DNA of 41,348 nt from Pseudotamlana haliotis (GTDB taxonomy: Bacteria > Bacteroidota > Bacteroidia > Flavobacteriales > Flavobacteriaceae). Of this stretch, positions 6,944 to 22,958 are shown one piece after another. The stretch's first letter is position 1, and each line of letters begins with the position of its first letter. The position numbers and the translations under genes are program-made. Location of the stretch: positions 1-41,348 of the forward strand of contig NZ_WAAT01000040.1 in assembly GCF_008806375.1 (NCBI RefSeq), given 5' to 3'. The notes under the pieces are model-generated. The model did not search any database, had not been told where the DNA came from, and saw only the letters and a program-made list of their open reading frames with translations.

Positions 6944-6966
6944 ACGAAATAATTAATATCAACCCC
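6944..6966 (-). promoter_or_regulatory. Candidate ECF-sigma promoter for the M16 peptidase
   Basis: Minus-strand GGGGT (6966-6962), 15 bases, then CGT (6946-6944) followed by CTT. The same arrangement is found upstream of fecR, the S9 peptidase, the lipoprotein and the tlpA pair. Assignment to the local sigma factor is inference. Confidence 0.55.
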
Positions 6967-7054
6967 TATTTTAGAAATGTTAAAATTATTATAAATCAGA
7001 TTTTGAATACTTTATTTCATTGGAAAAAGGTCGCCATATTTTTAAATAGATGAC

Positions 7055-7085
7055 TGTAGGCTTCCCCATATATAGAACTGCTTAA
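7055..7085 (+). repeat. Left terminal inverted repeat of the IS3 element
   Basis: It starts TGTAGGCTTCC and contains GAACTG. It matches the reverse complement of 8126-8156 at 22 of 31 bases. Confidence 0.75.
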
Positions 7086-7130
7086 TTTTCCAAAACTGGT
7101 TTAAAATTACTGTTTTTAATTCTCTTAGGG

Positions 7131-7843
7131 TTAGCCTTCGAATATGTATTTGTTTAGGACTCCACGTCTATAACTTCCATTGAAGCGTTCTATAAAAGCA
7201 TTTTGAGTTGGTTTTCCTGGTTGAATATATTTAAAGTCTATTCCATGCATTTGACTCCATTCTTTGGTGATATTAGGGATAAATTCAGGACCGTTATCCA
7301 TTCGTACTTTTCAGGCTTGCCCTTTTTGTTAATTAGGTGGTTAAGCACCCAAACTATGCGGTTACTGGTCAATGAAAAATCTATTTCTATATGAAGAACT
7401 TCTCGGTTAAAATCATCAATGATATTAAAGGCTCGAAAACGTCTTTTGTTTTCTAATACATCAGTTACAAAATCCATACTCCAAGTGTAGTTGAGTTCTT
7501 TTGGTTCTTCTAAAAGCTCTATAACTCGTGCAGGTAAACGCTTCTTTACTTTCCTTCTCAAGGGAAGTCCTAACCAGACATACACCCGATGTACGCGTTT
7601 GTGATTCCACAGGTTGCCTTCTTCTCGTAAGCGATCATAAGCCTTACAAAAACCCTATTCAGGGCGTTCTTGAGCTTTTTGTTGTAAAGCTTCTTCTATG
7701 TCGCCGTCATCCTTGGCTTTGCATGTATAATAATAAACACTCTTACTCATTCCTAGAACACGGCACGCCCTACTAATACCGTAATGAATAAGTTCCTTAG
7801 TGATGCTGCGTTTACTGAAGGGCTTTAAAGCTTTTTTTCAATG
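7131..7843 (-). pseudogene. IS3-family transposase OrfB (DDE integrase), broken
   Basis: Reading begins after a -1 slip at the A7 run 7832-7838, as usual for IS3 elements. Three lesions are visible. A TAG at 7655-7657 falls where the family has an aromatic residue ([13 protein letters not shown]). A one-base deletion near 7305-7312 breaks the frame before the second catalytic Asp. The C-terminal end is missing after [10 protein letters not shown]. The DDE residues can still be traced: WSMDF, then MDNGPEF after frame correction, then [10 protein letters not shown]. It cannot make a working transposase. Confidence 0.88.
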
Positions 7844-8091
7844 ATCTTTTTGGCCATTTGGTGGTCAAGAGCTAATGTAGCATACATCTGTTTAAGCTTA
7901 CGGTTTTCTTCTTCAAGCTCTTTTAACCTTTCTAACTCTTTTGAGTTCATTCCAGCGTATTTTGAACGCCACTTATAAAAAGCAGCTGAGCTTACTACGT
8001 GCTCACGACTTATTTGGACGACACTCTTTCCGTTATCAAACTCCTTTAAAATCTTTGCAATCTGTTGCGGGGAAAATTTACTTTTTCTCAT
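7825..8091 (-). CDS. IS3-family transposase OrfA (helix-turn-helix)
   Basis: An 88-residue OrfA that binds the IS ends. It has an N-terminal HTH (MRKSKFSPQQIAKILKEF...YKWRSKYAGM) followed by a leucine-rich coiled coil (ELERLKELEEENRKLKQM). ATG 8089-8091 is chosen because reading further upstream would cross the IS end at 8156. The frame is intact, but with orfB dead the gene is only a relic. The A7 run near its end is the expected frameshift site. Confidence 0.85.
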   Translation of the reverse strand: MRKSKFSPQQIAKILKEFDNGKSVVQISREHVVSSAAFYKWRSKYAGMNSKELERLKELEEENRKLKQMYATLALDHQMAKKIIEKKL

Positions 8092-8125
8092 AATACTGTT
8101 AAAGTTAAAAATTATTATTATACTT

Positions 8126-8156
8126 TTAAACAGTTCGGTTTTAAGGGAAGCTTGCA
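8126..8156 (-). repeat. Right terminal inverted repeat of the IS3 element
   Basis: On the minus strand it starts TGCAAGCTTCC and contains GAACTG. It is the partner of 7055-7085. The next plus-strand base begins the IS30-type fragment. Confidence 0.75.
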
Positions 8157-8161
8157 CTCGG

Positions 8162-8419
8162 CATAAACAAATAGCAGATCAGCACGGTGTCAAAACGTAT
8201 TTCACAAGACCATATACGTCGCAAGATAAGGGTACTGATGAGAACCGGATAGGATTGATAAGAAGATTTTTACCCAAAAGAACAGACCTGAACCTAGTGA
8301 GTTCAGAACGGATTCAAGAAATAGAAAAATTAATCAATAATAGAAGAGTTAGAAAGTTTGGCTACATTAGCCCTATAGAAAAATTAAAATCTACTTGGCC
8401 TGTTGCACTTATAACTTGA
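8162..8419 (+). pseudogene. IS30-family transposase, C-terminal remnant
   Basis: An open stretch of 85 codons to TGA 8417-8419 reads like the end of IS30 transposases: a HGVKTYFTRPYTSQDKGTDE segment, then NRIGLIRRFLPKRTDL, then a NNRRVRKFGYISP tail. The last catalytic Glu of the DDE set falls in the KGTDEN part. The N-terminal two thirds are missing and the fragment abuts the right end of the IS3 element. This suggests that the IS3 insertion or a later deletion removed the rest. No continuation is evident left of the IS3 element. Confidence 0.8.
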
Positions 8420-8760
8420 ACATGGTAATTTAGAATTTGTGTTGTCCCTAAATAGAGTAACACAAAGCATTAGTTTTTAGAAGAGAATTAGCTATAGCAA
8501 TTCTAATAGGAAAGAATTGAACTAAATATATTCATTTAAAATCTTATAAAAATAAGCTCTTAGCTCTTGAACATCTCTTTTATTTTAGCAATCTCATATA
8601 AAAGGTTAAACACCTTATAAACAAAATATCTAAAAACCATTTACTTAATCTTTTTAGACTAATAATTGGTTTTTTAAAAATCTACAACATTAAAAAACGT
8701 GCAAGTTTTAATATAGTCTATTTGACTTTGTTGGTTATATAAACCTTTTAAATATTAAAA
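8420..8760. other. Spacer between IS30 remnant and susD terminator
   Basis: There is no gene here. A dyad TTTGTGTT (8436-8443) / AACACAAA (8459-8466) follows the IS30 fragment by 16 bases and may be what is left of its terminal repeat. The rest is AT-rich without recognisable signals. Confidence 0.5.
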
Positions 8761-8799
8761 AAAGTACTTCTAAGAATATTTAATTCTTAGAAGTACTTT
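8761..8799 (-). terminator. Intrinsic terminator of the fecR-susC-susD unit
   Basis: Perfect 17-bp arms (8761-8777 and 8783-8799) around a 5-base loop, followed on the minus strand by a long T-run. It lies 22 bases beyond the susD stop. Confidence 0.88.
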
Positions 8800-8820
8800 C
8801 TATAAGTAGGTATAAAAAAA

Positions 8821-10245
8821 TTAATATTTATTTTGTACCGTTTCTCCTTTACTTAAAAGTATAATTTCATTACCTATTGGCCTAGCATACCTTCTATCAT
8901 CTGGCTGAATAGTAACTGTTTCACCATTAACAACTCTAGTAAGAATAATAGAATCAGTAAGATCATCATTATTCAATCTTTTAATATCCATAAAGCGATA
9001 TTCAAAAGGGTCTTCTCTTCTACGTTCATCAATTATTTCTTCAACAGTTTCTTTCACCGTTGAAGGTATAGGTAGAGCTACATAATCAGCAGGTTTAAAG
9101 CGGTTTACTCTTACCATTTCAACATCTGCCATAGCCCCAGTGATATCATTATCACGAGCCTTGCACTCTGCTCTTGTTAAATACATTTCAGCAACTCCTG
9201 GTCCAGCAAGTGAAGTACCAGGTCCTAAATCCATATAACTTGTCCAAGTATTTGTAGTTACACCAGAACGTGAAAACCAACCATCAATAAAAAACATGTT
9301 TCTTATATCATTTGGATCATATAAATCCAATAACTCTTGACTTGGACTAGTATTCCAGTTACCATTTGAAGATTCTACATAGAAATACTCATCAGTATAA
9401 AGCTCAGGAATAGAAATATCCCAAGTTCTTAACTCGACTGAATTTGGATATGTAAATGGTCCGTACCATAAAGAGTAAGGTAATTCATAAATACTTGTAG
9501 CGTAATCTACCATAGCATTGTACCCATTTAACGCCGCATCTGCATGTGTTTTAGCTTTTTCATATTCTCCCAAATACAAATATACTCTTGCTGCTAACGC
9601 ATGAACACTAGGCTTATCGGTTCGAAAAGGTGATTGCTTTAAAGCAATTGGATGCTTTAAAGCTTCTTCAATATCAGCTTTAATAAAATCAAATGTTTCT
9701 TTTACTGTTGCTCTTGCTAAACTTTCTGTAATAGATGACGTTTGTTTTAACACAACACCCATTTCATTAAGGTTTGAATCATTTGGATAAAGTGAATACA
9801 CTACTGCTGCTTGAAACAAATGAAATGCTCTTCTAAAATGAGCTTCAGCAATAGTCTCAGCCAATAAAACAGGATCTTCTGAAATTAATTCACCACCAGC
9901 TATTTGATCTAAGGCTAAGTTTGGTAAAAGCAAATAGCGATAATAACCACTCCATTGACCATCTCTAGTTCTATCAACATCTGTTTCAAAAGTATAATGT
10001 GCCAATTGTTCATCAGTAATTGTAAATGACTCATCTAAAACAGCTTGAGGGACATATGCATTATCGGTACACCAGATATTTACTTGATCGTCTGTAAAAG
10101 GTATATTAATACCATTAAATAATTTATCAATATCGTCAACTGATGTTATTTCTACTGAATTACTAACGCTCGGGCTCTTATCTAAAAAATCCTCAGAACA
10201 CCCAAATGTTAAAATGCTTAATAAAGCTATATATATATTTCTCAT
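8821..10245 (-). CDS. SusD/RagB-family outer-membrane nutrient-binding lipoprotein
   Basis: A 474-residue surface lipoprotein that caps the SusC transporter and captures substrate. The lipobox cysteine is C16 (LTFGC), followed by the family opening SEDFLDKSPS. Helical TPR-like repeats fill the middle (HFRRAFHLFQAAVVYSLYP, ALAARVYLYLGEYEKAKTHAD). The C-terminal AEMYLTRAECKAR and EIIDERRREDPFEYRFMDIKR blocks are typical SusD signatures. It begins 12 bases after susC, so the two are co-transcribed. No carbohydrate-active enzymes are near; the neighbours are peptidases and thiol proteins, so a peptide ligand is more likely than a glycan. The ligand cannot be read from the sequence. Confidence 0.93.
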   Translation of the reverse strand: MRNIYIALLSILTFGCSEDFLDKSPSVSNSVEITSVDDIDKLFNGINIPFTDDQVNIWCTDNAYVPQAVLDESFTITDEQLAHYTFETDVDRTRDGQWSGYYRYLLLPNLALDQIAGGELISEDPVLLAETIAEAHFRRAFHLFQAAVVYSLYPNDSNLNEMGVVLKQTSSITESLARATVKETFDFIKADIEEALKHPIALKQSPFRTDKPSVHALAARVYLYLGEYEKAKTHADAALNGYNAMVDYATSIYELPYSLWYGPFTYPNSVELRTWDISIPELYTDEYFYVESSNGNWNTSPSQELLDLYDPNDIRNMFFIDGWFSRSGVTTNTWTSYMDLGPGTSLAGPGVAEMYLTRAECKARDNDITGAMADVEMVRVNRFKPADYVALPIPSTVKETVEEIIDERRREDPFEYRFMDIKRLNNDDLTDSIILTRVVNGETVTIQPDDRRYARPIGNEIILLSKGETVQNKY

Positions 10246-10257
10246 TTTATTATTTTT

Positions 10258-13200
10258 TTAAAATTCAACATTAATACCTACAGAAAAAGTTTTTTCAGGA
10301 GCTCTAGCCACTCCTCTATTATATTCAGGGTCAATTTTAAAATCATTAGCAACCCAGATATTTCCTAAATTTTCTGCCTGAGCAAATAAACGTAAATTAG
10401 AAATCCCTATTTTAGAAAGTACATCTCTAGACATATCATATGACAAATAGATTTGTTGTAAACGTATATGAGCAGCATCTTCTACTAATGAATCTAGCTG
10501 AGGCACATACCATCCCCAACGGTAATTATAAAATTCATATTGAGTAGTTAATTGAGGTAATCCCATAGCATCATGATTCCCTGCCATTAGTCCTTCTAAA
10601 TCTTCGTGATAAAGCCCACCTGTTCTAAATGATGGATACTCAAAAGTTGTTCTCACAAATTTATGCCCAAACTTACCTAGCATACGTGTACTTAATGTAA
10701 ATTGTTTAAACCTAAATGTGTTATTCCACCCTACAACTGTAGGAGCTACTTTAGTACCCATATATTTAAGAACTTCTCTTCCATCTTCTCCGTTAATTCC
10801 TATATTTTCATCCATACCATAAGTCACTCCATTTTGCCCGTTAATAGTTGGGTATGGTACTGGCTGAGATGGTATAGTTTGCATGCCTCCATATTCAAAA
10901 GCATAAATAGGTTGATATGGTTTCCCTTCAATATATGGAAAGCTAACTAATGATCTTGGATGAATAAAAAGGTCTGCTAAGGATGTTGTTTCACTATTAT
11001 TATGACCATAAACTAAATTGGTTGTTAAGAAAGCGTTATCTGAAAATTTAATATCAGAAAACAAATTGAATTCTACACCTTTATTAACCATTTCACCAAC
11101 ATTATATCTAGCCGATGATTGTCCTGTTGTAGAAGGAACATCTACTGATGCTATTAGAAGTTTACTATGCTTATTATACACATCAATAGATCCATACAAT
11201 TTACTATCAAATAAATTAAAATCTGTTCCAAAGTTTAGAGTATTGATGCGTTCCCAGCGTAAATCTGGATTTCCTAAACCATCAAGGTAACCACTAAATA
11301 ATCCGGTATTAGCATTAGGTGTAGAATATATAGTTATAGTTGGCTTTGTTGCTTCACTACCAACCAAATTTCCATTTTCACCATTAGTTACTCTAAAAGA
11401 TAATTTATTTATAGCATCTACATCTTCTAAAAAACTTTCATTCTTTGCATTCCATGAAAAGCCTAAAGACCACATAGGATTATAACGTTGACTTTTATCT
11501 TCTACAATAAAGTTTGCGCCATCAGAACGTGCGCTTCCTGAAACTGTATACTTACGGTCATAGGTATATGATAAGTTACCAAAATAGGATAAAAAACGAC
11601 TATCATATTGACCATATGCTCTTTCTCTTCCTATATATTTAGTATCATAGTCCCATACTGGCGACCATGGTGTGTTTTCTGGCAAATCAAAAGTATTATT
11701 ATCTTTATTAAAACCATAAGTTCTAGCTCTTGTAGCACCTTTAGTAGTGCTTGAAATTCTTTCAAAACCAGCTAAAGCGCTAACAGCATGTTTTCCAAAT
11801 ATTTTATCATATGTCAATAAACTTCTAAAAGTTGTTGAAATAGTTTCTTTAGAATCATAATCAAGAATAGCACCTGGATTAATACGAGTTCTACCTATTG
11901 CAGCATTTGCAGGATCATAATCCTCTATAGATGAACTATTAATGACTTCCATTTTAGAAAAGAAACTATTGGCACCATAAGTAGTATTAGCTGTTGTTTT
12001 AAAGTTTTCATATTGAAAACTTGGTTTAAATTGTAAACCATCAACAATGTCAATTTCTAAACCAGTACTAATTCTGTAATTGGTGTTTTTAAATTCTTGT
12101 AAATTTTCTCTAGCATCCCTTAATGGGTTGTAAGTAATCTCATCATAAGGTAAGTTTGTTAGGGTATTCCCCATAACATCAAGATATTTTGAATTATAAG
12201 AAATACTAGCGACAGATGAATAAGCACCATTAGCATCAATTAAACTTTCATATGGCGCCATGTTTCCAAGTGTTTGTAACCCAACTCTACGAGCTCCGGT
12301 TGAACCATAAGGCGCTGACCCCTCTAATGCATTCGTAAATTTTGAATTATCTACCATTCCATTTAGATTAAAAGTAATCCAATCTCCTATTTTGTATTGA
12401 TTATTAATGTTAATCAAAAGCTGATTACTAGTATCATTAATAAAAGCATTAACATTGTCGTTATATACTGCAGAAACACGCGTATTACTCTTTTCAGTAG
12501 ATGTAGATATCGCTAAATTATACTGCTGATTAATAGGCGATGTTAACAAATATTTGCTTGCATCATCCAGGGTATTGGTACCTCTTAATCTATTTATTTT
12601 TGAATTTAATTCTGCTTGTGTAATATTACCATGATAAGCATCATAATATGCTTGAGCACCATGACCATATGCGACTTGAGCTATACCTCTATCATAAACG
12701 GTTTGAGGTGGTGGGTTATTTGACATACTACCTACTACTCCAAACCCACCTGGTGTCCAAATGGTACTTTCAAAATCTAATGTTGTTGCTGAATTAGCTC
12801 CTGTAAAATTATAATCTAAATCTACTTTAGATCTTAATTTCACAAAAGTACTAAATGAAACTTTCAACTTACTACCTTCCTGTGCCTTTTTAGTAATAAC
12901 TACAATAACACCATTACCTGCTCTAGCACCCCAAATAGAAGCTGCTGCCGCATCTTTTAAAATTGTAACACTGGCAACATCATTAGGGTTAATAGTATCA
13001 AATCCCCCTTGAATTGGAAAGCCATCAACAACAACAAGAGGAGCAGTACTAGAATTAATAGAACCAACCCCTCTTACAACAACGTTATTAATATCAATAT
13101 TACCATCTGCGTCTTCAACAATTTGTACATTTGGAGCAATACCTTGAAGAACAGAACCGATGCTTTGTGTTACATTATTTTTTATTTGATCTTTTCCAAT

Positions 13201-13923
13201 AACATTAAAAGCCCCTGTAGATCTTTCTCGTGATATTTTTTGATATCCAGTAACAACAACCTCTTCAAGTTGGTTTAAATCTTCTTGTAAAATAAAGTTA
13301 TATGTTGTTTTACCTGCTAAAATATTTTGTTGCGCTTTTTTATACCCAATTCCTGTAACCACTAATATATCTCCAGGAGTGGCAGTTAATCTAAAAACAC
13401 CATCGAAGTCTGAAGTAGTACCACTAATAATATTTGTTTCAGCACCGGAAGTATCTTTAGTTAAATAAACACTAAGCCCAGGAATAGACATGCCGTTTTT
13501 ATCGGTTATTGTTCCTGTAACCAAAATTCCTTGAGTGTTATTTAATGCAGCCCGCTCTGTTATTAAAACATTATTAGAATTTGCCACTAGTTGAACTTGA
13601 AACTCACCTTTAGACAAGGTTTTTTGAAGTAAGCTGTTAATGTAAATATTACCTTTTTTGAGGTTTACTTTAGGTAAATCTTTAAACATATCAACTTGAT
13701 AGATAAATGTATATTGGGTTTGATCCATAATAAGATCAAAGACTTGATCTACAGTTAACACCTTATCTGCATCGATTTTTATTTTGGTATTTTGAGAAAA
13801 CACCTCACTTGTTGGTGTTAAACTAAAAACCATAGAGCAAAACAAAAAAATAAAACTCTTCATAACTGTAATCAGTATTTTTTTTCTGACAAAGAAAAAA
13901 ACATTTTTTAATTTAATTTCCAT
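10258..13923 (-). CDS. SusC/RagA-family TonB-dependent outer-membrane transporter with STN signalling domain
   Basis: A 1221-residue outer-membrane transporter. A signal peptide (core MKSFIFLFCSMVFS from Met21) is followed by an STN domain at about 50-118, which in FecA-type systems contacts a FecR anti-sigma. Then come a carboxypeptidase-regulatory-like domain (about 131-215, VTGTITDKNGMSIPGLSVYL), the plug (about 230-345, EVVVTGYQKISRERSTGAF) and a beta barrel ending in phenylalanine (FSVGINVEF). The STN domain and the adjacent fecR/sigma pair make it both a transporter and a sensor. It lies 104 bases after fecR, with no ECF-type promoter in that gap, so it is probably read from the fecR promoter. 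Its leader shares an element with the lipoprotein gene at 19051-20007. Confidence 0.94.
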   Translation of the reverse strand: MEIKLKNVFFFVRKKILITVMKSFIFLFCSMVFSLTPTSEVFSQNTKIKIDADKVLTVDQVFDLIMDQTQYTFIYQVDMFKDLPKVNLKKGNIYINSLLQKTLSKGEFQVQLVANSNNVLITERAALNNTQGILVTGTITDKNGMSIPGLSVYLTKDTSGAETNIISGTTSDFDGVFRLTATPGDILVVTGIGYKKAQQNILAGKTTYNFILQEDLNQLEEVVVTGYQKISRERSTGAFNVIGKDQIKNNVTQSIGSVLQGIAPNVQIVEDADGNIDINNVVVRGVGSINSSTAPLVVVDGFPIQGGFDTINPNDVASVTILKDAAAASIWGARAGNGVIVVITKKAQEGSKLKVSFSTFVKLRSKVDLDYNFTGANSATTLDFESTIWTPGGFGVVGSMSNNPPPQTVYDRGIAQVAYGHGAQAYYDAYHGNITQAELNSKINRLRGTNTLDDASKYLLTSPINQQYNLAISTSTEKSNTRVSAVYNDNVNAFINDTSNQLLININNQYKIGDWITFNLNGMVDNSKFTNALEGSAPYGSTGARRVGLQTLGNMAPYESLIDANGAYSSVASISYNSKYLDVMGNTLTNLPYDEITYNPLRDARENLQEFKNTNYRISTGLEIDIVDGLQFKPSFQYENFKTTANTTYGANSFFSKMEVINSSSIEDYDPANAAIGRTRINPGAILDYDSKETISTTFRSLLTYDKIFGKHAVSALAGFERISSTTKGATRARTYGFNKDNNTFDLPENTPWSPVWDYDTKYIGRERAYGQYDSRFLSYFGNLSYTYDRKYTVSGSARSDGANFIVEDKSQRYNPMWSLGFSWNAKNESFLEDVDAINKLSFRVTNGENGNLVGSEATKPTITIYSTPNANTGLFSGYLDGLGNPDLRWERINTLNFGTDFNLFDSKLYGSIDVYNKHSKLLIASVDVPSTTGQSSARYNVGEMVNKGVEFNLFSDIKFSDNAFLTTNLVYGHNNSETTSLADLFIHPRSLVSFPYIEGKPYQPIYAFEYGGMQTIPSQPVPYPTINGQNGVTYGMDENIGINGEDGREVLKYMGTKVAPTVVGWNNTFRFKQFTLSTRMLGKFGHKFVRTTFEYPSFRTGGLYHEDLEGLMAGNHDAMGLPQLTTQYEFYNYRWGWYVPQLDSLVEDAAHIRLQQIYLSYDMSRDVLSKIGISNLRLFAQAENLGNIWVANDFKIDPEYNRGVARAPEKTFSVGINVEF

Positions 13924-13938
13924 AAATTTACATTGTTA

Positions 13939-14027: not shown

Positions 14028-15209
14028 TTATTTTATAATAATTGTTTTTCCATTAATTTCGTATGAGTTTATAAATTTAGTATGCTTGATATTTAATAGA
14101 ATTTCTTCAATATTTTGATTTTTTCTTGATACCCCATTAAAACGGATATCTTCTAAATCATGATTAAGAAAAACGATATCAACATCATACCATCTAGATA
14201 ATACCTTCGCTATTTCTCCTAAGGTTTCATTTCTAAAACTAAAAATACCGTTCTTCCAAGAAATCACCTTTTCTACATCTACACTAGCTACCTCTATTAT
14301 GCTGTTTTGAATTTTAACATTTATTTTAGACTGCTCTCCTTCTTTTAATATGGTATTATCGAACATATTACTTACAGATACACGCCCTTCTGCTAATGTT
14401 GTATAGATATTTGTTTCGCCTTTATAAGCTTCTATATTAAACTTAGTACCTAAAACCTCAACCTCTTGAGCATGAGTTCCAACAATAAAACGAGCGCCAT
14501 GATGCTCAGTGCTTGAAGACACTTCAAAATAAGCTTCTCCATAAACAAGTTCTACCTTACGTGGTTCTCCCTCTACAAAAGCTATTGGATATTTAAGTTG
14601 AGATTCCGAATTCAGCCATGCTTTAGTGCCATCAGGCAACTTAATAAAGAACTGCCCCCCCCTAGGTACGGTCAAGAAATTATATTTAACTTCTTCCTTA
14701 GAAACTTTAGAATTACTATATAATACATGCTCTCCATTGGCAGATAAATTATTAGACACAAAATCCTTACCATCTTCTAATATGACACTTGAACCGTCTT
14801 CTAATGTTAACACAGCCCTATTTGTTCCTGCTTCAATAGTGTTGTCTATAATAACAGGTGGGTTTGTTGTAATTTGATTTGGCAACTGTTCATGGACTTG
14901 AGTCTTTACATAAGCAATGGAAAGCGATATAAACAACACTATTGAAGCCGCAACAGCATATTTCCAATAAGCTGGCTTTCTTTTTTCTTTCTTAATTTTA
15001 GATTCAATACCACTCCATGTAACATCAAGATTACTTAAGTTAACTGTTTGATATTGCTCAATATTATAATTCACACTAACATAGTGTTTAAATACAAGCT
15101 TATTGTTTTCACTTTCGTTTAACCAATTATTAAGAATATTTAATTCATCACTGCTTATTTGATTTGAGCAGTACCTAATAATTAAATTTTCTATATCGTT
15201 ATTTATCAT
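14028..15209 (-). CDS. FecR-family anti-sigma factor
   Basis: A 393-residue inner-membrane regulator. The cytoplasmic N-terminal part (1-80) should bind the ECF sigma factor. A single membrane helix lies at about 83-101 (YAVAASIVLFISLSIAY). The periplasmic FecR domain has the typical GGQFFIKLPDGTKAWLNSESQLKYP and VYGEAYFEVS stretches. A C-terminal domain (EIAKVLSRWYDVDI) resembles an STN-like partner fold. It is divergent from the sigma gene and upstream of susC, the standard order of SusC-coupled cell-surface signalling loci. A GGGGT-N15-CGT promoter sits immediately upstream, suggesting that the unit is autoregulated by the sigma factor. Confidence 0.92.
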   Translation of the reverse strand: MINNDIENLIIRYCSNQISSDELNILNNWLNESENNKLVFKHYVSVNYNIEQYQTVNLSNLDVTWSGIESKIKKEKRKPAYWKYAVAASIVLFISLSIAYVKTQVHEQLPNQITTNPPVIIDNTIEAGTNRAVLTLEDGSSVILEDGKDFVSNNLSANGEHVLYSNSKVSKEEVKYNFLTVPRGGQFFIKLPDGTKAWLNSESQLKYPIAFVEGEPRKVELVYGEAYFEVSSSTEHHGARFIVGTHAQEVEVLGTKFNIEAYKGETNIYTTLAEGRVSVSNMFDNTILKEGEQSKINVKIQNSIIEVASVDVEKVISWKNGIFSFRNETLGEIAKVLSRWYDVDIVFLNHDLEDIRFNGVSRKNQNIEEILLNIKHTKFINSYEINGKTIIIK

Positions 15210-15231: not shown

Positions 15232-15254
15232 ACGGTTACTTTTTAATATACCCC
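15232..15254 (-). promoter_or_regulatory. Candidate ECF-sigma promoter for fecR-susC-susD
   Basis: Minus-strand GGGGT (15254-15250), 15 bases, CGT (15234-15232) followed by AAAA. The CGT lies 23 bases before the fecR ATG. This is one of five such sites in the window. Confidence 0.6.
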
Positions 15255-15277
15255 TACTTAAAATTACTTTTTTTTTT

Positions 15278-15285
15278 TAGATTTG
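15278..15285 (+). promoter_or_regulatory. TAGATTTG -7 box of the ECF sigma gene
   Basis: An exact match to the Bacteroidota housekeeping -7 consensus TAnnTTTG, 18 bases before the sigma ATG at 15304. No clear TTTG -33 box is visible in the T-rich upstream. A TTG at 15283 lies inside this box and is therefore unlikely to be the start codon. Confidence 0.6.
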
Positions 15286-15303: not shown

Positions 15304-15936
15304 ATGAAAAACAACACGGAAGACCTTCAATTATTGATTCTTAATTTCAAAAAAGGGAATACTTCGGCTTTTAAATATTTCTTTGAAAAATATCATAGCA
15401 AACTTACCTCCTTTATTAATAGCTACACTAATAATCCTGAATTAACCCAGGATATTGTTCAAGATGCTTTTGTAACTTTATGGGAATCAAGAGATAAAAT
15501 TGATAGCAGCAAATCTATAGCTCCATATTTATACAAAATTGCATACAACATATTCATTAACAACTACAGAAAACATGTTAAAGAATCTAAAATGCTTGAT
15601 GCCTTAATGTATAAAACTTTAATTGATTTAAGTGAAGAAGACACTGATTTACAAGAAAAAAAATTAAAACAAATAACAGAGGCCATCGAAATTCTTCCTC
15701 CAAAGTGTAAAAAAGTTTTTCAAATGAGTAAGCTTCAAGGGTATAAATACGCCGAGATAGCTATCATGCTTAATATATCTGTAAAGACCGTTGAAGCTCA
15801 AATGGGTAAAGCCTTCGCAATAATTAGAGAACGAATCAAAAAAACAGGACCATTAATCTTAAGTTTAATAGCAAAACATATCTACCATAAAACTACAAAT
15901 ACCTGGCATAAATACTTAAACAAAACCCCCATTTAA
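15304..15936 (+). CDS. ECF-type RNA polymerase sigma factor
   Basis: A 210-residue sigma-70 family protein of the extracytoplasmic-function group. Region 2 includes FKYFFEKYHSKLTSFINSY and the core-binding and -10 recognition part DIVQDAFVTLWESRDKI. Region 4 has the -35-reading HTH: LPPKCKKVFQMSKLQGYKY, then AEIAIMLNISVKTVEAQM. There is no region 1 or 3. ATG 15304 was preferred over TTG 15283 because the latter lies within the -7 box. It is divergent from fecR and convergent with the S9 peptidase gene (stops 38 bases apart). Its likely targets are the five GGGT-N14/15-CGT promoters in this window. Confidence 0.93.
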   Translation: MKNNTEDLQLLILNFKKGNTSAFKYFFEKYHSKLTSFINSYTNNPELTQDIVQDAFVTLWESRDKIDSSKSIAPYLYKIAYNIFINNYRKHVKESKMLDALMYKTLIDLSEEDTDLQEKKLKQITEAIEILPPKCKKVFQMSKLQGYKYAEIAIMLNISVKTVEAQMGKAFAIIRERIKKTGPLILSLIAKHIYHKTTNTWHKYLNKTPI

Positions 15937-15949: not shown

Positions 15950-15973
15950 ATTGAAAAATATTACAAAAGACTA

Positions 15974-18754
15974 TTAGTCTTTCCAATTCTCTAATCTTCT
16001 TTGCTGTTCTTTATACGGTATTCCTTCAGTTATCCAGTCTTCAGCTTTATCCTCTTTAAGATAATGGCCAAACCATTTTAAAATACGTGTTTGATAATCA
16101 AATCTGTTTTTTTCTTGCCTTAACCCATGCCCTTCATTAGCATAAACTAATAAAACAAAAGGTTTACCAGCTCTTCTAGCCGCATTATAATAGGCTAACC
16201 CTTGAGACCAATTAACATTAGTGTCGTTATCTCCAACTTCAAAAAGCATTGGTGTATTTAAATTTTCAATTTGCATTATTGAAGAATTTCTAAAGTAATT
16301 ATCAGGACTAACCCAAGGTGCAGAATTCATACGCTCCTGCCCTACTTCAAAATGATCATTTTCTGGTCTACCTCCAAATGCAGGAGTAATAGCTAAATTC
16401 ATAGCAACTAAATCTGTTAACCCAGCTCCAGCAACACTAGCTGCAAAAATATTGGTTTGGGTAGGTACAAACCCAGCTTGGTAACCTCCCCAAGAATGCC
16501 CAATAAGACCAACCTTTGAGGCATCAACATCGCCTTTATCAACAACTACATTAACTGCATTTTCTAGAGTTGTTGTTGATGAAGTACCTGGTTCCCCTGC
16601 TATAAAGTGAATATCTGGATTTAGTACAAAATATCCATTTTGAGACCATACGGTTGTATTATAGTAATCGTATTTTGAAGGCGCAATATACCTATGTAAT
16701 CGGTTTGAAAGTTTTTCATAGACATAAGTAATCATGGGGTACTTTTTACCCTTCACATAATTTGCTGGATAATATAAAATACCTTGAGCATTTTTACCAA
16801 CTGCGTTTTTATACTCAATTAACTCCGCCTTACCCCAAGCAAAATTATTTTGAAAAGCATTTGTATTTGAAAGTTTTACAGGAAATTTAAATTCGGTATT
16901 TGTTAAATACAAATTTGGAGAATCTTGGTAGGATTGTTTTACAAAAAGGATATTATCTGAGTTCTTTAATTTTAGTGATGCCAAAGAAATATCAAAATTA
17001 TCATAAACTAGTCTTTTAATTTCTTTACCAGGAATACCTTTAGCAAAACCTGTATTTTTTGTGTATTTACCTTTCAAAGAAAAATACACAGTTTTACTAG
17101 CATCGGTTTCTATTTGTTCACTATCAAAATTAATAATTCTATAAACAACACCTTCTTTTTCACCATTAGTTATTTTTTTTGGAGCAGCCCCATTTGTAAA
17201 AAATTGCCAAACATTAAATTCACTATAAACAAAAAATGATTTACTGTCTTTATTCCATCTATTAAAACCAAAAGCTGCTTTTTGAGGCAAAGGATGGTCA
17301 TTTTCAAAATTAATAAATGTACCATTTAATCCTTGTGTAATATTTTTAGAGGTGCCTTTAGAAATATTAAACAAGTGAATATCATTATCTTTTAAATATG
17401 TAAAGTATTTATTATTTGGGCTTACTCCCCATGCCCTTGTAATATTTTCTAATACTTTTAATTTAGCTCCTGTTTTAGAGTTAACGGTATAAACATCATA
17501 ACTAGGTCTGCCAAAAATAGCTTCAAAATCATAAGGTGTTCTATCAAGACCAAGCACAACTTCATTATCTATTTGAACTTGAATTTTTTCAACTAAATCA
17601 TCAGCTAAGGGAACAAATTTATTTTCATTAATATGCCATACTGCACTTAATGGTTGTTCAATATCTCCCATTTTGCTTTTCTTTTGAGCAGAAATAATAA
17701 CTAAATCTTTACTATTCCAAATTTCTACTTCAGGAGCTTCTTCTTTACTAGCCCCGGTAATAAGAGAGTCTTTTTTCTTTTCTGTTTCTTCAATCTTTTT
17801 TGATTTATTTTCCCAACTAAATGTTGTAAAATAAATTGAATTTGCATCTTCAGACACCCTAACTCTATTACTTAATAATCTTGTATCTTTTGGGAAGTTT
17901 TCAAATTTTGATTGATTAAAAATATGAGAAGAGGTCTTTTTTGAGTTTAAGTCTTTCCATAATAGTAAATGATGGGTTTCATCTATATAATCATCATCTT
18001 CAAATGTTCTCATTACAAATAGATCATCACTATCTTTAAGCCATAGCATGTTAGAATACGTTGTGTTTTCCTGGTCTAAAACTCTTAAAACACCTGTGTT
18101 TGGGTTATACGTTTGAATAGCATTTCCAACCTTGTCTTTTGTTTCAATTATCATAGCGATAATGGCATTATCACTTTGCCAGTTGTAACTCTTAACGTTT
18201 CCAAAAGTCACTTCATTTTTAGAATTTAAATTTTTAACAATCAAAACATCTCCCTCACTACGCTTCATAGCAATATAGCTGCCCACATCACTAAAACTAA
18301 TAGATTGATACCCTTCCAGCTCTAAAGTATCTTTAGTTTTTAGATTATAAATTATAGATTTAAGAGATGCTTTATCTTTATCGGCATCTTTCTTTTTAGA
18401 TTTTAAACGTTTTTTCGCTTCTTTCCCTGGAAGCACTTTGCTTAAACTTATCCAATTAGCATCATTAGAAAACACAGCTTTTGAAGTATTTGGAAATACA
18501 ATTGAACTTTTATTTTTTGTATTGTAAATATACGTTGAGTTATCTTGATCATTAGTTGTTGTCTTATAAGTAACCCATTCTCCATTACCTGAAATAATCA
18601 CATTACTTAGCCTTTCCCATTGACCGTAATCACTAGGCTTTACTAAATTAATAGAATCCTTTTTTATTTCTTGAGCAAAAATATTAGAATGACTATTAAT
18701 AAAAACTGTTATTACAACAGCAACAAGTTGTTTTAAAAAAGAAGATTTTAGCAT
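15974..18754 (-). CDS. S9 family peptidase (prolyl oligopeptidase type), exported
   Basis: A 926-residue serine peptidase with an N-terminal signal peptide (about 1-28, ending IFAQ), a long propeller-like N-terminal region, and a C-terminal alpha/beta-hydrolase domain. The catalytic serine is about S754 in GHSWGGYQA. The acid is in VGDNDTNVNW (about D844) and the histidine is about H876 in ANEGHGL. The family cleaves oligopeptides, acting here in the periplasm or at the surface. A Lys/Asp-rich insert (around KSKKKDADKDK) is a local oddity. It has its own AGGGT-N14-CGT promoter and a minus-strand terminator, so it is a single-gene unit in the inferred regulon. Confidence 0.92.
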   Translation of the reverse strand: MLKSSFLKQLVAVVITVFINSHSNIFAQEIKKDSINLVKPSDYGQWERLSNVIISGNGEWVTYKTTTNDQDNSTYIYNTKNKSSIVFPNTSKAVFSNDANWISLSKVLPGKEAKKRLKSKKKDADKDKASLKSIIYNLKTKDTLELEGYQSISFSDVGSYIAMKRSEGDVLIVKNLNSKNEVTFGNVKSYNWQSDNAIIAMIIETKDKVGNAIQTYNPNTGVLRVLDQENTTYSNMLWLKDSDDLFVMRTFEDDDYIDETHHLLLWKDLNSKKTSSHIFNQSKFENFPKDTRLLSNRVRVSEDANSIYFTTFSWENKSKKIEETEKKKDSLITGASKEEAPEVEIWNSKDLVIISAQKKSKMGDIEQPLSAVWHINENKFVPLADDLVEKIQVQIDNEVVLGLDRTPYDFEAIFGRPSYDVYTVNSKTGAKLKVLENITRAWGVSPNNKYFTYLKDNDIHLFNISKGTSKNITQGLNGTFINFENDHPLPQKAAFGFNRWNKDSKSFFVYSEFNVWQFFTNGAAPKKITNGEKEGVVYRIINFDSEQIETDASKTVYFSLKGKYTKNTGFAKGIPGKEIKRLVYDNFDISLASLKLKNSDNILFVKQSYQDSPNLYLTNTEFKFPVKLSNTNAFQNNFAWGKAELIEYKNAVGKNAQGILYYPANYVKGKKYPMITYVYEKLSNRLHRYIAPSKYDYYNTTVWSQNGYFVLNPDIHFIAGEPGTSSTTTLENAVNVVVDKGDVDASKVGLIGHSWGGYQAGFVPTQTNIFAASVAGAGLTDLVAMNLAITPAFGGRPENDHFEVGQERMNSAPWVSPDNYFRNSSIMQIENLNTPMLFEVGDNDTNVNWSQGLAYYNAARRAGKPFVLLVYANEGHGLRQEKNRFDYQTRILKWFGHYLKEDKAEDWITEGIPYKEQQRRLENWKD

Positions 18755-18795
18755 AATTATTTATGTTAAGTTATTTTTAGTGTCTGATATTCATT

Positions 18796-18817
18796 ACGGA
18801 TTTTTGTTAAATACCCT
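18796..18817 (-). promoter_or_regulatory. Candidate ECF-sigma promoter for the S9 peptidase
   Basis: Minus-strand AGGGT (18817-18813), 14 bases, CGT (18798-18796) followed by AAT. The CGT is about 42 bases before the ATG. Confidence 0.5.
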
Positions 18818-18872
18818 AATTATCAATACTGAAAACTAGATTTTTTAACTTTATTTTAGTAGTTCACTAATT

Positions 18873-18892
18873 GCGTGTGTGTGTGTGCGTGT
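18873..18892. repeat. GT microsatellite, 20 bp alternating purine-pyrimidine
   Basis: GC followed by six GT units and GCGT. It lies about 56 bases upstream of the S9 promoter element, in the spacer 18755-18985. Length changes by slippage or Z-DNA formation are possible. The rest of the spacer holds no other signal. Confidence 0.8.
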
Positions 18893-18985
18893 TGCAAACG
18901 AATATTTACCCTTTTTCTTTGAGATAAAAGTTTTTCAATTTGATTAATAAAATAAATTTTAGTCCTGCTTAGGATAACCAAAAAG

Positions 18986-19040
18986 TTTCAATAAAAGCAA
19001 AGGAGGGTTAAAACATAACCCTCCTTTGCTTTTATTGAAA
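18986..19040 (-). terminator. Intrinsic terminator of the lipoprotein gene
   Basis: Perfect 25-bp arms (18986-19010 and 19016-19040) around a 5-base loop, with a T-run on the minus-strand exit side. It starts 11 bases after the lipoprotein stop. It is the strongest hairpin in the window. Confidence 0.9.
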
Positions 19041-19050
19041 AAAAAACTAC

Positions 19051-20007
19051 TTAATCTTCAGTATAAATATTTGATGGCCAATCGGTTCCATCTGTTCTTG
19101 TAAATCTTACGGTTCCTGTTTCATCATAAGCATCAGAATATTGGTATGTGAAAGCTATATCCATAGAAGCTCCATTTAAATTTGAAATGCTCCATTTTTC
19201 TTGATAACTTCCTTGAACATAAGTTAAGCCATCTAAAAAGTCATAATAAACCTTTCCTTTCCCTCCATATTTGTAATCCCATAAAAGATTACTCATGCTA
19301 TAAACACCTTCTCCATCATGTGTGATATTAACAGTACCTGTTTTTCCTAACCAAACACCTCCGTAAGTAATTGCACCTCCACTTAATTCAATCCACTCAA
19401 ATTCAAAAGTACCCTCAAATAATGGTGGCGCAAAGTCTTCAACTCTAACTTTCATGGCATATCTATTACTTTCTCTAATAGATTCTCTTGAGTCTAATGT
19501 AGATCCATCTTTAGCAGTAATAACATAGTAAAGTAAAAAAATATCGCCTTCTCTTGCCAAAGTGCTAGACCTATCCTTCTGAAAATCATTTTCATATACC
19601 CCATAGGCTTCATCAGCTCCTAAAGAAAAAGTAAAAGCGCCAGATTCTGGGATTTCTGCAGAACCAATCATTTTACCATCGGTATTAAATGGTGTTGAAT
19701 AGTTATAACCATCTTTTTCTTCTACAGTAATGTAGAAATCTACTTTTGAAAAGTCTTTAGCCGGGTTTTTTGACTTTAACCTCATATTTATCTCTACTTC
19801 ATCATTCCCCCAATATTCTTGTTTTGTTTGTAAATCATAATACCAAATGAAAGTTTCTTTATCCTCTACAGGTTCAAAAACTAACTTAGTATCTAGTTGC
19901 CAAATTGATTCTGAATTTATTGTATCATCATCGTTATCACTACAAGAATTAAATAATAAAATGGCGCCGAAAAATAAAAAGCATCTTAAGATCAATGTTT
20001 TTTTCAT
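19051..20007 (-). CDS. Putative exported lipoprotein of the SusCD locus, unknown function
   Basis: A 318-residue protein with a lipoprotein signal (MKKTLILRCFLFFGAILLFNSC, lipid cysteine C22) followed by an acidic SDNDDD linker, which in Bacteroidota often accompanies surface export. The body looks beta-rich. I do not recognise a family. It has no catalytic motif, CxxC or metal site that I can see. It has its own ECF-type promoter and shares a leader element with susC, so it is probably made together with the transporter. An accessory surface binding protein (SusE/F-like in role, not in recognised sequence) is the best guess. Confidence 0.8.
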   Translation of the reverse strand: MKKTLILRCFLFFGAILLFNSCSDNDDDTINSESIWQLDTKLVFEPVEDKETFIWYYDLQTKQEYWGNDEVEINMRLKSKNPAKDFSKVDFYITVEEKDGYNYSTPFNTDGKMIGSAEIPESGAFTFSLGADEAYGVYENDFQKDRSSTLAREGDIFLLYYVITAKDGSTLDSRESIRESNRYAMKVRVEDFAPPLFEGTFEFEWIELSGGAITYGGVWLGKTGTVNITHDGEGVYSMSNLLWDYKYGGKGKVYYDFLDGLTYVQGSYQEKWSISNLNGASMDIAFTYQYSDAYDETGTVRFTRTDGTDWPSNIYTED

Positions 20008-20013
20008 AATTTG

Positions 20014-20044
20014 AATTGTTAGTTAATATTAAATTGTTCTGTGG
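20014..20044 (-). promoter_or_regulatory. Leader element of the lipoprotein gene shared with susC
   Basis: Minus-strand CCACAGAACAAT (20044-20033), then AATATTAACTAACAATT (20030-20014), 6 bases before the ATG. It closely matches the two blocks upstream of susC. Confidence 0.45.
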
Positions 20045-20059
20045 TTATTTATAATCTTT

Positions 20060-20081
20060 ACGTATTATTTACAAAAACCCC
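20060..20081 (-). promoter_or_regulatory. Candidate ECF-sigma promoter for the lipoprotein gene
   Basis: Minus-strand GGGGT (20081-20077), 14 bases, CGT (20062-20060) followed by AAAG. The CGT lies 53 bases before the ATG, so the shared leader element would be inside the transcript. Confidence 0.55.
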
Positions 20082-20127
20082 TACGTGATTTTTATTTTTT
20101 TAACATGGAATCTAAAAATGCTACTAT

Positions 20128-21516
20128 TTAGATACTTAAATCATCAAATAGGTTAATTAATTTGTGATCTGATGGTCTTGGTGCATTAGCTGAAACAATA
20201 TTGCCAGAAGGGTCTATTAGAATGAACCTAGGAATTCCTTTTATTAAATACCCCTTAACAAACTCTGAACTCCAACTTTTATCTGAAAATAATTGAATGC
20301 CTCCTAGGTCTTTATCGTCAACCATTTTTTTCCACTTTTTATAGTCTCCTTGTCTATCTACAGAAATACTAATAAACTCAATGTTTTTTCCGTGGTAATT
20401 TTTTTCAATTTTCTTTAATGATGGGATCTCAGCCATGCATGGTCCGCACCATGTTGCCCACACATCTATGTACACGTATTTACCTTTTAAATCATCTAAA
20501 GATGTTGTTCCTCCAGCATGATTTTCATAATCAACAAACTTTGGTGAAGAGCTCCCTTTTGATAAAAGTTTTAACTGATTATAAATCTTAGTAATTGAGT
20601 CTTTTGCAACCCTATCTGTAGACGCATTGTTAAAAGCTTTATAAAAACCATCTAAATCACTTGTATAAGTGATATTACCTGAACTATTTCTTAATAGCAA
20701 TTGGTTCTTTATTTCTTGATTGTCTACATTTTTGGAAATAAAATCAATTAAACCCAAGTAATAATCTGCGCTCTCATCTTTAATTGTACTTTTATATGTA
20801 TCTCTCAAGTCAGTCTCAACAATAACTCTATAGAGTCCAGACCTATTGAACTCATCAACATTAAATTTATCTAAAGTGTTCAATTCTAAAAAAAATGAAT
20901 CAGAAGGCTTAAAGGATTCATTTTTTATAAAACGTCCTCTTGCAACAGGGTATTTTTGCAAATCATAAATGAATTCATAATCAATATTAAACATCTGTTC
21001 TTTGATAAACTCAGCACCCAAGTCTTTAGCTTCATTTAACAAGACTTTTTTCTTATTTTTATATGCAGTTATATATTGTTTAAAACCAACCTCATCTCTG
21101 TTATATTTTTCTTCATAATTTGAATTCTCTTCATTTGATATCTTGGCTAGTTCAACTTTAATATTTTTTTCTTCAGAACCTACGCCTTCAAAGCTTAATG
21201 TATTAAAAAAATCATTTCCATCTAGAGTCATTTTAACATGATCGCCCTGATTAACAGGTAGCCAAATATTCTTGTTTTTATATAAAAAAAGGAACTCTCC
21301 GTTTTGTATTTGAATGGTATCATTAAAGCTACCATGCTCATCTATTTTTAAAGTATGAGATTTTATTTGTTTATAAGATTTTATTACGAAACTTTTTGAT
21401 GTATCATAATTGGCTATTGTTCCTTGTACTATAGCATAATCGATAGGTTTTTCATTTACGTTACAATTAAACATTACCCCTAAAGCTACTAGTAATAGCA
21501 TGTACCTTATCTTCAT
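20128..21516 (-). CDS. TlpA-like thioredoxin-fold lipoprotein, copy 1
   Basis: A 462-residue envelope thiol protein. A lipoprotein signal (MLLLVALGVMFNC, C18) leads into a beta-rich N-terminal domain (about 25-115), a helical middle, and a C-terminal TlpA/redoxin domain (about 320-462) with WCGPC (C357, C360). It also has the cis-proline segment IKGIPRFILIDPSG. TlpA-type proteins reduce disulfides in the periplasm and need electrons from a DsbD-like donor; a dsbD gene is at 2005-3966. It begins 8 bases after copy 2 and closely resembles it, a tandem duplication within one operon. Its target is unknown. A surface-anchored role in opening disulfide peptides is inference. Confidence 0.9.
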   Translation of the reverse strand: MKIRYMLLLVALGVMFNCNVNEKPIDYAIVQGTIANYDTSKSFVIKSYKQIKSHTLKIDEHGSFNDTIQIQNGEFLFLYKNKNIWLPVNQGDHVKMTLDGNDFFNTLSFEGVGSEEKNIKVELAKISNEENSNYEEKYNRDEVGFKQYITAYKNKKKVLLNEAKDLGAEFIKEQMFNIDYEFIYDLQKYPVARGRFIKNESFKPSDSFFLELNTLDKFNVDEFNRSGLYRVIVETDLRDTYKSTIKDESADYYLGLIDFISKNVDNQEIKNQLLLRNSSGNITYTSDLDGFYKAFNNASTDRVAKDSITKIYNQLKLLSKGSSSPKFVDYENHAGGTTSLDDLKGKYVYIDVWATWCGPCMAEIPSLKKIEKNYHGKNIEFISISVDRQGDYKKWKKMVDDKDLGGIQLFSDKSWSSEFVKGYLIKGIPRFILIDPSGNIVSANAPRPSDHKLINLFDDLSI

Positions 21517-21524
21517 ATTTATTT

Positions 21525-22895
21525 TTATATGTTTAATGAATTAAATAATTCAATTAACTTTTTATCTGAAGGTCTTGGAGCAGAATACTTCACAATATTG
21601 CCATTAGGATCTAATAAAATAAAATGTGGAATTCCTTTAATTTGATAATCTTGAACGAATTGAGATTTCCATGCATTATCTGCTAACACTTGAACACCAC
21701 CTAATTCTTTATCCTTAATCATCTTTTTCCATTTATCATGATCTTTTATCTTATCTATTGATAAACTTAAAAACTCAATATTTTTATCATGATACTGCTT
21801 TTCAACCTTCTTTAAAGAAGGTATTTCAGCTTTACAAGGTCCACACCATGTTGCCCAAACATCAACATAAACATATTTACCTTTCAAATCATCTAATGAA
21901 GTAGTACCACCAGCATTATTTATATAATTAACAAACTTTGGCGACGGCTCACCAACCGCAAGAACTTTTACTTTTTCATATAACTCGGTAAGGGCTTTTT
22001 TATCATCTTCATTTGTTGAAGTCTCCATAAAAAGGGTATAATATTGCCCCATATTATCAGAGTATTTAATTTCCTCTATTTGCTCAGATAACAAAGCATC
22101 CCTTATAATCTCATTGGGAATTTCTTTAACTGATTTAATAAATGACACACCAAAATCCTGAGAACTTGAGTTCGCTAACTCAATACTCTTAGACTTATAA
22201 TAACTTTGCACCAAATATTGATAATAAATAGAATTTAAGTAGTCTTCTTCATTGTGATAATCAAATCCATCTAATTCAGCTAAAAAAGACTCTGGCACTT
22301 TAAAGTCTGGCTGTTTTGTATAAAATGAATGACTAGACTCGTAGTTATTTAAATGATACAAATAATTATAATGAATATTCTTTTTTTCAACATTAAAAAA
22401 AGCTTTATCTAACCCCTTATAGCTTGAAGCAATATGCGTAACTTCTTCTTCAATTTTTTTACATTTAGCCTTAAAATCTTCTGGTTGTAATTGATAAAAA
22501 GATTTTCTATCCCCCATTATATTTGCAACCGCATTCTCTTTTTTAGTAAGATAATTACTGCTCTCATTCCCTTTTCCTGTAATTGAAAGACTGTTTTTAA
22601 AATCTTTAGAATTATAATTCAGTATAATATGATCTCCAGCAGATAGGTATAAATCACTATAGTTTCTACCTTCACTAAAGTGGAAAATACCAGGTAAATA
22701 ATTAATAGTATCAATAAAAGTTCCTTCCCTATCAACTGCAATCGTTTTATTAAATTTATAGTCAGAACTCATTAATCGAATTGCAGATATTTCTGTATTC
22801 AAAATTTTTCCGGAAATGATTGCGTAATCAACTTCCGCCTCTTTTTTACAAGATATTATTGAAATAATAGATAAAAATAAAATTACTTTTTTCAT
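21525..22895 (-). CDS. TlpA-like thioredoxin-fold lipoprotein, copy 2
   Basis: A 456-residue paralogue of the next gene with the same order of parts: lipobox (IISIISC, C16), beta-rich N-terminal domain, helical middle, and a C-terminal TlpA/redoxin domain with WCGPC (C351, C354) and the cis-proline segment IKGIPHFILLDPNG. The C-terminal 130 residues are nearly the same in both copies, while the N-terminal halves have diverged strongly. That fits conserved chemistry with a changed partner or substrate. It is the first gene of the pair, with an AGGGT-N15-CGT promoter 41-63 bases upstream. Confidence 0.9.
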   Translation of the reverse strand: MKKVILFLSIISIISCKKEAEVDYAIISGKILNTEISAIRLMSSDYKFNKTIAVDREGTFIDTINYLPGIFHFSEGRNYSDLYLSAGDHIILNYNSKDFKNSLSITGKGNESSNYLTKKENAVANIMGDRKSFYQLQPEDFKAKCKKIEEEVTHIASSYKGLDKAFFNVEKKNIHYNYLYHLNNYESSHSFYTKQPDFKVPESFLAELDGFDYHNEEDYLNSIYYQYLVQSYYKSKSIELANSSSQDFGVSFIKSVKEIPNEIIRDALLSEQIEEIKYSDNMGQYYTLFMETSTNEDDKKALTELYEKVKVLAVGEPSPKFVNYINNAGGTTSLDDLKGKYVYVDVWATWCGPCKAEIPSLKKVEKQYHDKNIEFLSLSIDKIKDHDKWKKMIKDKELGGVQVLADNAWKSQFVQDYQIKGIPHFILLDPNGNIVKYSAPRPSDKKLIELFNSLNI

Positions 22896-22935
22896 ATTGA
22901 TAAGTTTTCTAGTTTAATAGTTATATGTTTTAAAT

Positions 22936-22958
22936 ACGCTGAACTTTTTATTTACCCT
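22936..22958 (-). promoter_or_regulatory. Candidate ECF-sigma promoter for the tlpA pair
   Basis: Minus-strand AGGGT (22958-22954), 15 bases, CGT (22938-22936) followed by ATTT. The remaining spacer to the LysR gene shows no other signal. Confidence 0.5.

Follow-up and report, generated by a model that had tools for sequence, protein, structure and literature searches.

We analyzed a 41,348-nucleotide stretch of the Pseudotamlana haliotis genome (contig NZ_WAAT01000040.1, positions 1 to 41,348; hereafter the window) that carries a gene for an extracytoplasmic function (ECF) sigma factor, a fecR-type anti-sigma gene divergent from it, and five copies of a two-block motif, RGGGT and CGT separated by 14 or 15 nucleotides (nt), that are candidate ECF promoters. 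Profile searches for nine window proteins, using Pfam and NCBIfam models, gave the assignments in Table 1. The sigma protein has Sigma70_r2 and r4_2 domains, and the SusC-SusD pair adjoins the anti-sigma gene. Within SusC, the family match begins at residue 134, and there were no Pfam STN matches at E 0.001. The S9 peptidase also matched the lasso peptide isopeptidase model below threshold (E 3e-26, 92 bits against a cut-off of 400). The putative lipoprotein had no Pfam or NCBIfam matches.

Table 1. Candidate promoter elements and genes in the window (scores and ranks are those of the two-block matrix described in the text)
Feature	Coordinates	Strand	Description
Candidate promoter 1	15232..15254	-	GGGGT-N15-CGT(A) before fecR-susC-susD; score 14.7, window rank 3
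A-tract (11 A on minus strand)	15268..15278	-	13 nt upstream of promoter 1; runs into sigma promoter box
Candidate promoter 2	6944..6966	-	GGGGT-N15-CGT(C) before M16 peptidase; score 16.2, window rank 1
Candidate promoter 3	18796..18817	-	AGGGT-N14-CGT(A) before S9 peptidase; score 8.7, weakest
Candidate promoter 4	20060..20081	-	GGGGT-N14-CGT(A) before lipoprotein gene; score 9.9
Candidate promoter 5	22936..22958	-	AGGGT-N15-CGT(A) before tlpA-tlpB, A-run upstream; score 15.2, window rank 2
ECF sigma factor	15304..15936	+	TIGR02985 Sig70_bacteroi1, E 5e-43, 147 bits against cut-off 126.4
FecR-type anti-sigma factor (fecR)	14028..15209	-	FecR and FecR_C domains; divergent from sigma
SusC/RagA TonB-linked outer membrane protein	10258..13923	-	TIGR04056, E 7e-159
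SusD/RagB protein	8821..10245	-	Domain match
M16 peptidase	4090..6915	-	Domain match
S9 prolyl oligopeptidase family	15974..18754	-	Domain match
Putative lipoprotein	19051..20007	-	Reading frame
TlpA/ResA-like thioredoxin-fold protein (tlpA)	21525..22895	-	Domain match; first in pair
TlpA/ResA-like thioredoxin-fold protein (tlpB)	20128..21516	-	Domain match; second in pair, 8 bp downstream
295-aa gene, named LysR-like in the initial annotation	23151-24038		Reading frame

All five sites are present on the minus strand at the coordinates given in the initial annotation, and the -10 box reads CGT in each. The fecR site has every feature of the promoter class described below (an A-tract, RGGGT, a 15-nt spacer, and YGT[AC]). 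The S9 and lipoprotein sites have 14-nt spacers, and no A-tract was seen at the M16 site. The interval between CGT and ATG is 22-52 bases, the 23-53 reported before counting one extra. The window has another two strict matches, both in coding sequence, one at 21480-21458 (minus strand) within tlpB and the other at 37785-37807 (plus strand) within a 599-aa frame (36522-38321). As there are no others in the window, the pattern is absent, as first claimed, upstream of the other genes that the initial annotation named (the names are its own). The tlpB match is a full consensus copy, TAGGGGTAATGTTTAATTGTAACGTA, within the first codons of the gene, and may be a chance match, a relic, or an internal promoter. 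Upstream of the sigma gene, the strict scan of the window found no RGGGT motif, and the housekeeping box proposed there was borne out: TAGATTTG at 15278-15285 (plus strand), before the ATG at 15304, is of the -7 type, with the housekeeping consensus TAnnTTTG quoted in PMC7366714 (articles identified by PMC number are cited from excerpts).

As a bare pattern, the motif is common. Across the 3.35-Mb genome, RGGGT-N15-CGT occurs 71 times and RGGGT-N14-CGT 64 times (135 in total), compared to 86 and 63 (149) for the reversed-pattern control. The eight bases alone are therefore not enriched genome-wide, an outcome that the initial annotation had listed as telling against its proposal, and position and context alone rescue the motif. 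Because the bare pattern was so frequent, we inspected the sequence around each of the 128 matches that lie elsewhere in the genome. By a rough rule in which "coding" means within an open frame at least about 70 codons long, 113 were coding and 15 non-coding. An ATG-started frame followed within 150 nt in three of the 15 and within 60 nt in one, and the spacers of these three matches were higher in G+C than those of the five window sites. Within the window, five of seven strict matches are non-coding and lie within 55 nt of a start. For start-proximal placement (5/7 in the window versus 1/128 outside), the Fisher p value is 4e-7, although deriving the pattern from the same five sites makes the comparison partly circular.

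We therefore trained a two-block matrix, seeded with RGGGT and GT, on fecR upstream regions from other genomes. The comparison set consisted of 102 sequences: the window, 19 loci from relatives, 80 loci from named genomes (by title, 79 from Bacteroidota groups and one from Gemmatimonas), and two other loci of the window genome. In the relatives, whose aligned sigma factors are 34-54% identical to the window sigma, RGGGT was marked in 16 of 19 fecR upstream regions (off the likely site in one, L076), and the other three have close variants. A search of all combinations of a 4-mer, a gap, and a 3-mer, made without the initial pattern, ranked AAAA-N16-GGG first (42/98 fecR versus 16/484 control upstream regions) and also yielded GGGT-N16-GTA (20/98 versus 15/484). 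From these 98 regions, we removed 22 that are overlapped by another frame and the three from the window genome, leaving 73 for training, including that of the nearest ortholog (G011). In five-fold cross-validation, 49 of the 73 held-out regions scored at least 8, compared to 0/73 on the opposite strand and 3.4% of dinucleotide shuffles.

The resulting consensus upstream of fecR is an A-tract, RGGGT, a 15-nt spacer, and [CT]GT[AC]WTA. Spacing in the 49 passing sites was 15 in 37, 16 in nine, and 17 or 18 in three. When spacings of 14 to 16 were allowed, the 102 loci yielded 98 start-proximal sites, with a spacing of 15 in 81, 16 in 12, and 14 in five. Runs of at least four A occur within 45 nt upstream of 73 of these 98 sites and mostly end 13-15 nt upstream of the R; this part of the class promoter had been missed in the initial annotation, which also took the consensus to belong to the window sigma pair. 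The held-out regions show it instead to be common to SusC/FecR-linked sigma factors, a large class of which it is the core promoter. We take the window promoter to be a clade version of the core common to these ECF factors of Bacteroidota.

The class promoter is distributed unevenly between the sigma and anti-sigma genes. Of 38 divergent loci, 27 have the motif before fecR and none has it before the sigma gene, so in this layout the brake would be induced while the sigma gene would not. Among the 41 loci with sigma and fecR in line, 18 have it before fecR and four before sigma. Among the 102 loci, which are of unequal length, 57 have one site, 14 two, one three, and 28 none, while the window and its G011 ortholog have five each. 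The signal was weaker in Bacteroidales (a Phocaeicola plebeius genome, its family, and a Dysgonomonas genome), where the matrix is dominated by other groups and a fecR with a next frame was usable in 42 of the 56 numbered loci: 12/42 scored at least 10, compared to 2/42 on the reverse strand, and at a score of 8 the counts were 15 and 8. In these Bacteroidales loci, the FecR_C model also matches within long frames of about 1100-1200 aa, probably in SusC N-terminal extensions, hinting that the FecR C-terminal domain and the SusC signalling domain are kin.

When we applied the matrix to both strands of the window, the M16, tlpA, and fecR sites took the first three ranks. The tlpB coding copy was fourth (13.2), the lipoprotein site sixth, and the S9 site 17th; the low scores of the last two are largely due to their 14-nt spacing.

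The nearest relative of the window sigma among 60 genomes, in G011 (C36), is 55% identical and lies in a cluster in which the shared genes keep an identical order: dsbD, M16, susD, susC, fecR, sigma, S9, lipoprotein, and tlp. Full motifs, each with TAGGGTA, precede fecR and tlpA (both with TGT), the lipoprotein gene (CGT), a MORN-repeat gene, and an FG-GAP/ASPIC gene. The G011 lipoprotein site also has a 14-nt spacer, and thus this spacing is common to both clusters at that gene. Upstream of the M16 gene, TAGGGTA is present without CGT, and in the 130 nt upstream of the S9 gene we did not find the motif. The regulon as first written is therefore conserved at fecR, the lipoprotein gene, and tlpA, half conserved at M16, and missing at S9, where the window site may be a recent or chance match. 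The interval between the M16 gene and susD differs between the two clusters. In the window, it contains the remnant of an insertion element (7238-8157, minus strand) with a transposase frame (HTH_Tnp_1) and a short frame that partly matches the rve integrase core, below the cut-off; in G011, a MORN-repeat gene and a TlpA-like gene occupy it instead.

Three lines of evidence indicate that the sigma factor of a locus reads the motif beside it. Candidate promoters from the same locus are more alike than those from different loci (mean identity 0.67 versus 0.56, permutation p 0.0005), although base composition common to a locus could contribute. Sigma similarity also correlates with promoter similarity (Mantel r 0.47, p 0.0005). 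In a first set of 49 loci with a fecR or sigma site, drawn from 60 of which 11 lacked a usable sigma frame, three sigma residues (numbered from the ATG at 15304) varied with promoter bases: residues 86 and 68 with the first and fourth -10 bases, respectively, and residue 167 with the first base of RGGGT. We wrote these down as three rules before obtaining further data, then fetched 60 loci and added 18. These 78 new loci have a sigma frame in 72, fecR in 69, and a site by a fixed rule in 33.

The residue-86 rule held in the new loci. Asparagine was paired with T in 15 loci, C in one, and G in one, while aspartate was paired with C in 10, A in one, and T in none (p 2e-6 for C versus T). The residue-68 rule as written (isoleucine with C, others with A) was not significant in the new loci, with isoleucine paired with C in four and T in one, and other residues with C in 12 and A in 11 (p 0.12). 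Regrouped post hoc as hydrophobic versus the rest, residue 68 fit in 65/72 of the joint set. The residue-167 rule failed in the new loci (isoleucine: A 11, G 6; methionine: A 8, G 5; leucine: A 3) and was dropped. The joint set of 82 loci gave 3150 column-position pairs, of which the two strongest were 68 with base 4 (z 9.7) and 86 with base 1 (z 9.0). In the 33 new loci alone (3255 pairs), 86 with base 1 ranked first, and 68 was outside the strongest twelve. Residue 86 (asparagine with T; aspartate, serine, or glycine with C) agreed with the first -10 base in 66 of 69 loci, and on a tree built without the tested columns, at least 11 changes were counted for the residue and at least 11 for its base. 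In four of four loci with methionine or glutamine at residue 86 (L145, L160, L043, and L350), the box reads GCAT instead of CGT.

As we read an alignment with ECF factors of solved structure, residue 86 sits in the region 2.4 helix and residue 68 in the loop that joins regions 2.3 and 2.4. In that segment, a review states, a single flipped-out -10 base is read by loop L3, and swapping this loop redirects specificity (PMC8103513). We propose that specificity among paralogues lies largely in the -10 bases read by residues 86 and 68. On balance, we favor a reading, with clearly less assurance than we attach to the local regulon below, in which the class shares a tripartite core (A-tract, RGGGT, 15 nt, [CT]GT[AC]WTA) and paralogues in the same genome are separated chiefly by their -10 bases. 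The corresponding code would be aspartate or serine at 86 for CGT, asparagine for TGT, and methionine or glutamine for CAT, with a bulky hydrophobic residue at 68 specifying C and a small or polar one A. If this is true, a shared core and a two-residue code would make the targets of most such sigma factors predictable from sequence.

For the window itself, we consider it likely, with a probability of about 0.8 as judged from sequence comparison, that the five sites serve as promoters when RNA polymerase carries the product of the sigma gene (15304-15936) and that they form a local FecI/FecR-type regulon using the class-wide promoter. The local regulon proposed in the initial annotation thus keeps its main support: five start-proximal sites within 16 kb, full motifs at five genes of the ortholog, three of them shared with the window set, and the covariation with sigma residues across the class.

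Several results, in addition to the absent genome-wide enrichment and the M16 and S9 gaps in the ortholog, weigh against these readings. The window sigma has asparagine at residue 86, which elsewhere is paired with TGT, yet all five sites have CGT, making it one of the three exceptions among 69. The G011 ortholog, which also has asparagine, has TGT at two of its full sites and CGT at three. Serine at residue 68 predicts A at base 4, which fits four of the five window sites, but the M16 site reads CGTC. A spacing of 14 occurred in 0/49 cross-validated class sites, and three of the five such sites in the wider set belong to the window and its G011 ortholog. A tighter consensus, TARGGGTW-N14-YGTM, was also rejected, as it gave nine matches versus nine in the control, with four in the window, one of them coding. 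The motif was undetected in 24 of 73 held-out fecR upstream regions, and only 33 of the 69 new loci with fecR passed. With just three independent residue-86 contrasts on well-supported branches, there were too few for a significant sign test. Of the other two FecR_C systems in the window genome, one has GGGGT-N15-CAC before fecR with isoleucine at 68 and alanine at 86 (identified by eye), and in the remaining one we did not find a similar site. These two systems are sigma-FecR clusters with SusC-sized frames, both with sigma and fecR in line, at G000 C74:47856-49726 and C74:77875-79671. Finally, the residue-68 rule seems to fail outside the class: by our alignment, Bacillus subtilis SigW has isoleucine at position 68. 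The SigW -10 element is CGTA.

One alternative is that only the fecR, tlpA, M16, and lipoprotein sites are functional and that the S9 site, like the tlpB coding copy, is a chance match. Sixteen rows of the window list outscore the S9 site (two of them alternative registers of reported sites), and its short spacing and absence from the ortholog point the same way. This site, however, is non-coding, lies 44 nt before a start, and adjoins the sigma gene, and placement within 60 nt of a start was seen once in 128 other matches; we therefore regard chance as the unlikely, though far from negligible, explanation.

The motif could also be an ECF promoter of general use in Bacteroidota, recognized by at least one other ECF factor of this genome, with the local sigma merely sharing it or being uninvolved. 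The core is indeed class-wide, and 14 regions of the window genome match the sigma family at E 0.001, three of them above the cut-off. In Flavobacterium psychrophilum, SM6 promoters have a CGT -10 box that, according to the authors, several sigma factors may share (PMC9723704). Against this explanation, the sites cluster within 16 kb of the sigma/FecR pair, sites of one locus share a flavour, and in the new loci the first -10 base follows a residue of the sigma factor encoded next to it; we consider it improbable. We considered and set aside as very improbable the idea that the sites bind an ordinary regulator, such as the adjacent LysR-named protein, or are transcript leader elements, since nothing beyond the presence of that gene specifically favors it, and the sites are asymmetric, on a single strand, nearly constant in spacing and in distance to the ATG, and covary with sigma residues.

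If the sigma factor does read these sites, the locus could work as follows. Ligand uptake through SusC/SusD would alter the contact between SusC and FecR, and FecR would then free the sigma factor, a step borrowed from FecI/FecR and Bacteroides models. Region 4.2 of sigma would bind RGGGT as the -35 element and region 2 would bind CGTA as the -10 element, with a preferred spacing of 15 and 14 tolerated here. We infer that transcription from these sites would produce fecR-susC-susD, tlpA-tlpB, lipoprotein, M16, and possibly S9 units. The sigma gene would be transcribed from its housekeeping promoter, outside its own regulon, with the anti-sigma gene inside, so that every burst would lift receptor and brake jointly. 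Our guess is that the ligand is a peptide or a peptide-like product, because the candidate regulon includes two peptidases (one with the sub-threshold lasso isopeptidase match) and two thioredoxin-fold proteins.

Bacteroidota often have dozens of ECF sigma factors, with 50 in Bacteroides thetaiotaomicron (PMC12596196). The excerpted literature states that ECF promoter prediction in this species needs start-site data (PMC3878776, 2013), that as of 2020 no recognition motif was known for any of its ECF factors (PMC7366714), and that a SigW-1 motif was not significant (PMC12596196, 2025). If our readings are true, a class core with residue-dependent -10 bases would open regulons to prediction and testing, and would bear on how so many ECF paralogues avoid cross-talk. 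ECF regulons and the CGT -10 box are already known. We did not find the RGGGT -35 element, the tripartite class-wide form, or the class-specific residue pairing in the literature searched; the ECF re-classification or Todor et al. (2020) may hold part of this, and a logo for this ECF group may already be in print. The listed example of ECF240 is a Chryseobacterium protein (PMC8999054), which is a lead only for the group of the window sigma. AGGGTA occurrences in excerpts of PMC5395568 and PMC3646045 proved to be in CRISPR repeats and a primer.

The window most resembles the SusC-linked branch of FecI/FecR/FecA signalling in Bacteroidota, defined by the TIGR02985 sigma, sharing with it the sigma factor, the FecR-type anti-sigma factor, the TonB-linked transporter, and, in the divergent layout, a sigma gene without the motif. 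It differs in having five separate local promoter sites that include peptidase and TlpA genes, compared to zero to three sites in the other loci of the 102 (G011 ortholog aside). In B. thetaiotaomicron PUL24 (BT1877 sigma, BT1876 anti-sigma), an anti-sigma mutant shows a 5' end before susC that was attributed to the sigma factor and lacks the housekeeping consensus, and 5' ends were mapped 291 nt upstream of BT1875 and 17 nt upstream of BT1871; that system differs in its additional dependence on the regulator BT4338 (PMC11501099). The SM6 promoters are also flavobacterial, have CGT in the -10 region, and are attributed to an ECF factor, but they control type IX secretion genes (PMC9723704). 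Compared to the canonical ECF promoter, with AAC at -35 and CGT at -10 (PMC8103513), the window sites share the CGT and have a next base that follows a sigma residue, whereas their -35 element is RGGGT. The general ECF code of Todor et al. (2020), described in PMC8103513, predicts promoter bases from residues in both sigma domains; the residue pairing proposed here would be a class-specific version of that code for SusC-linked factors.

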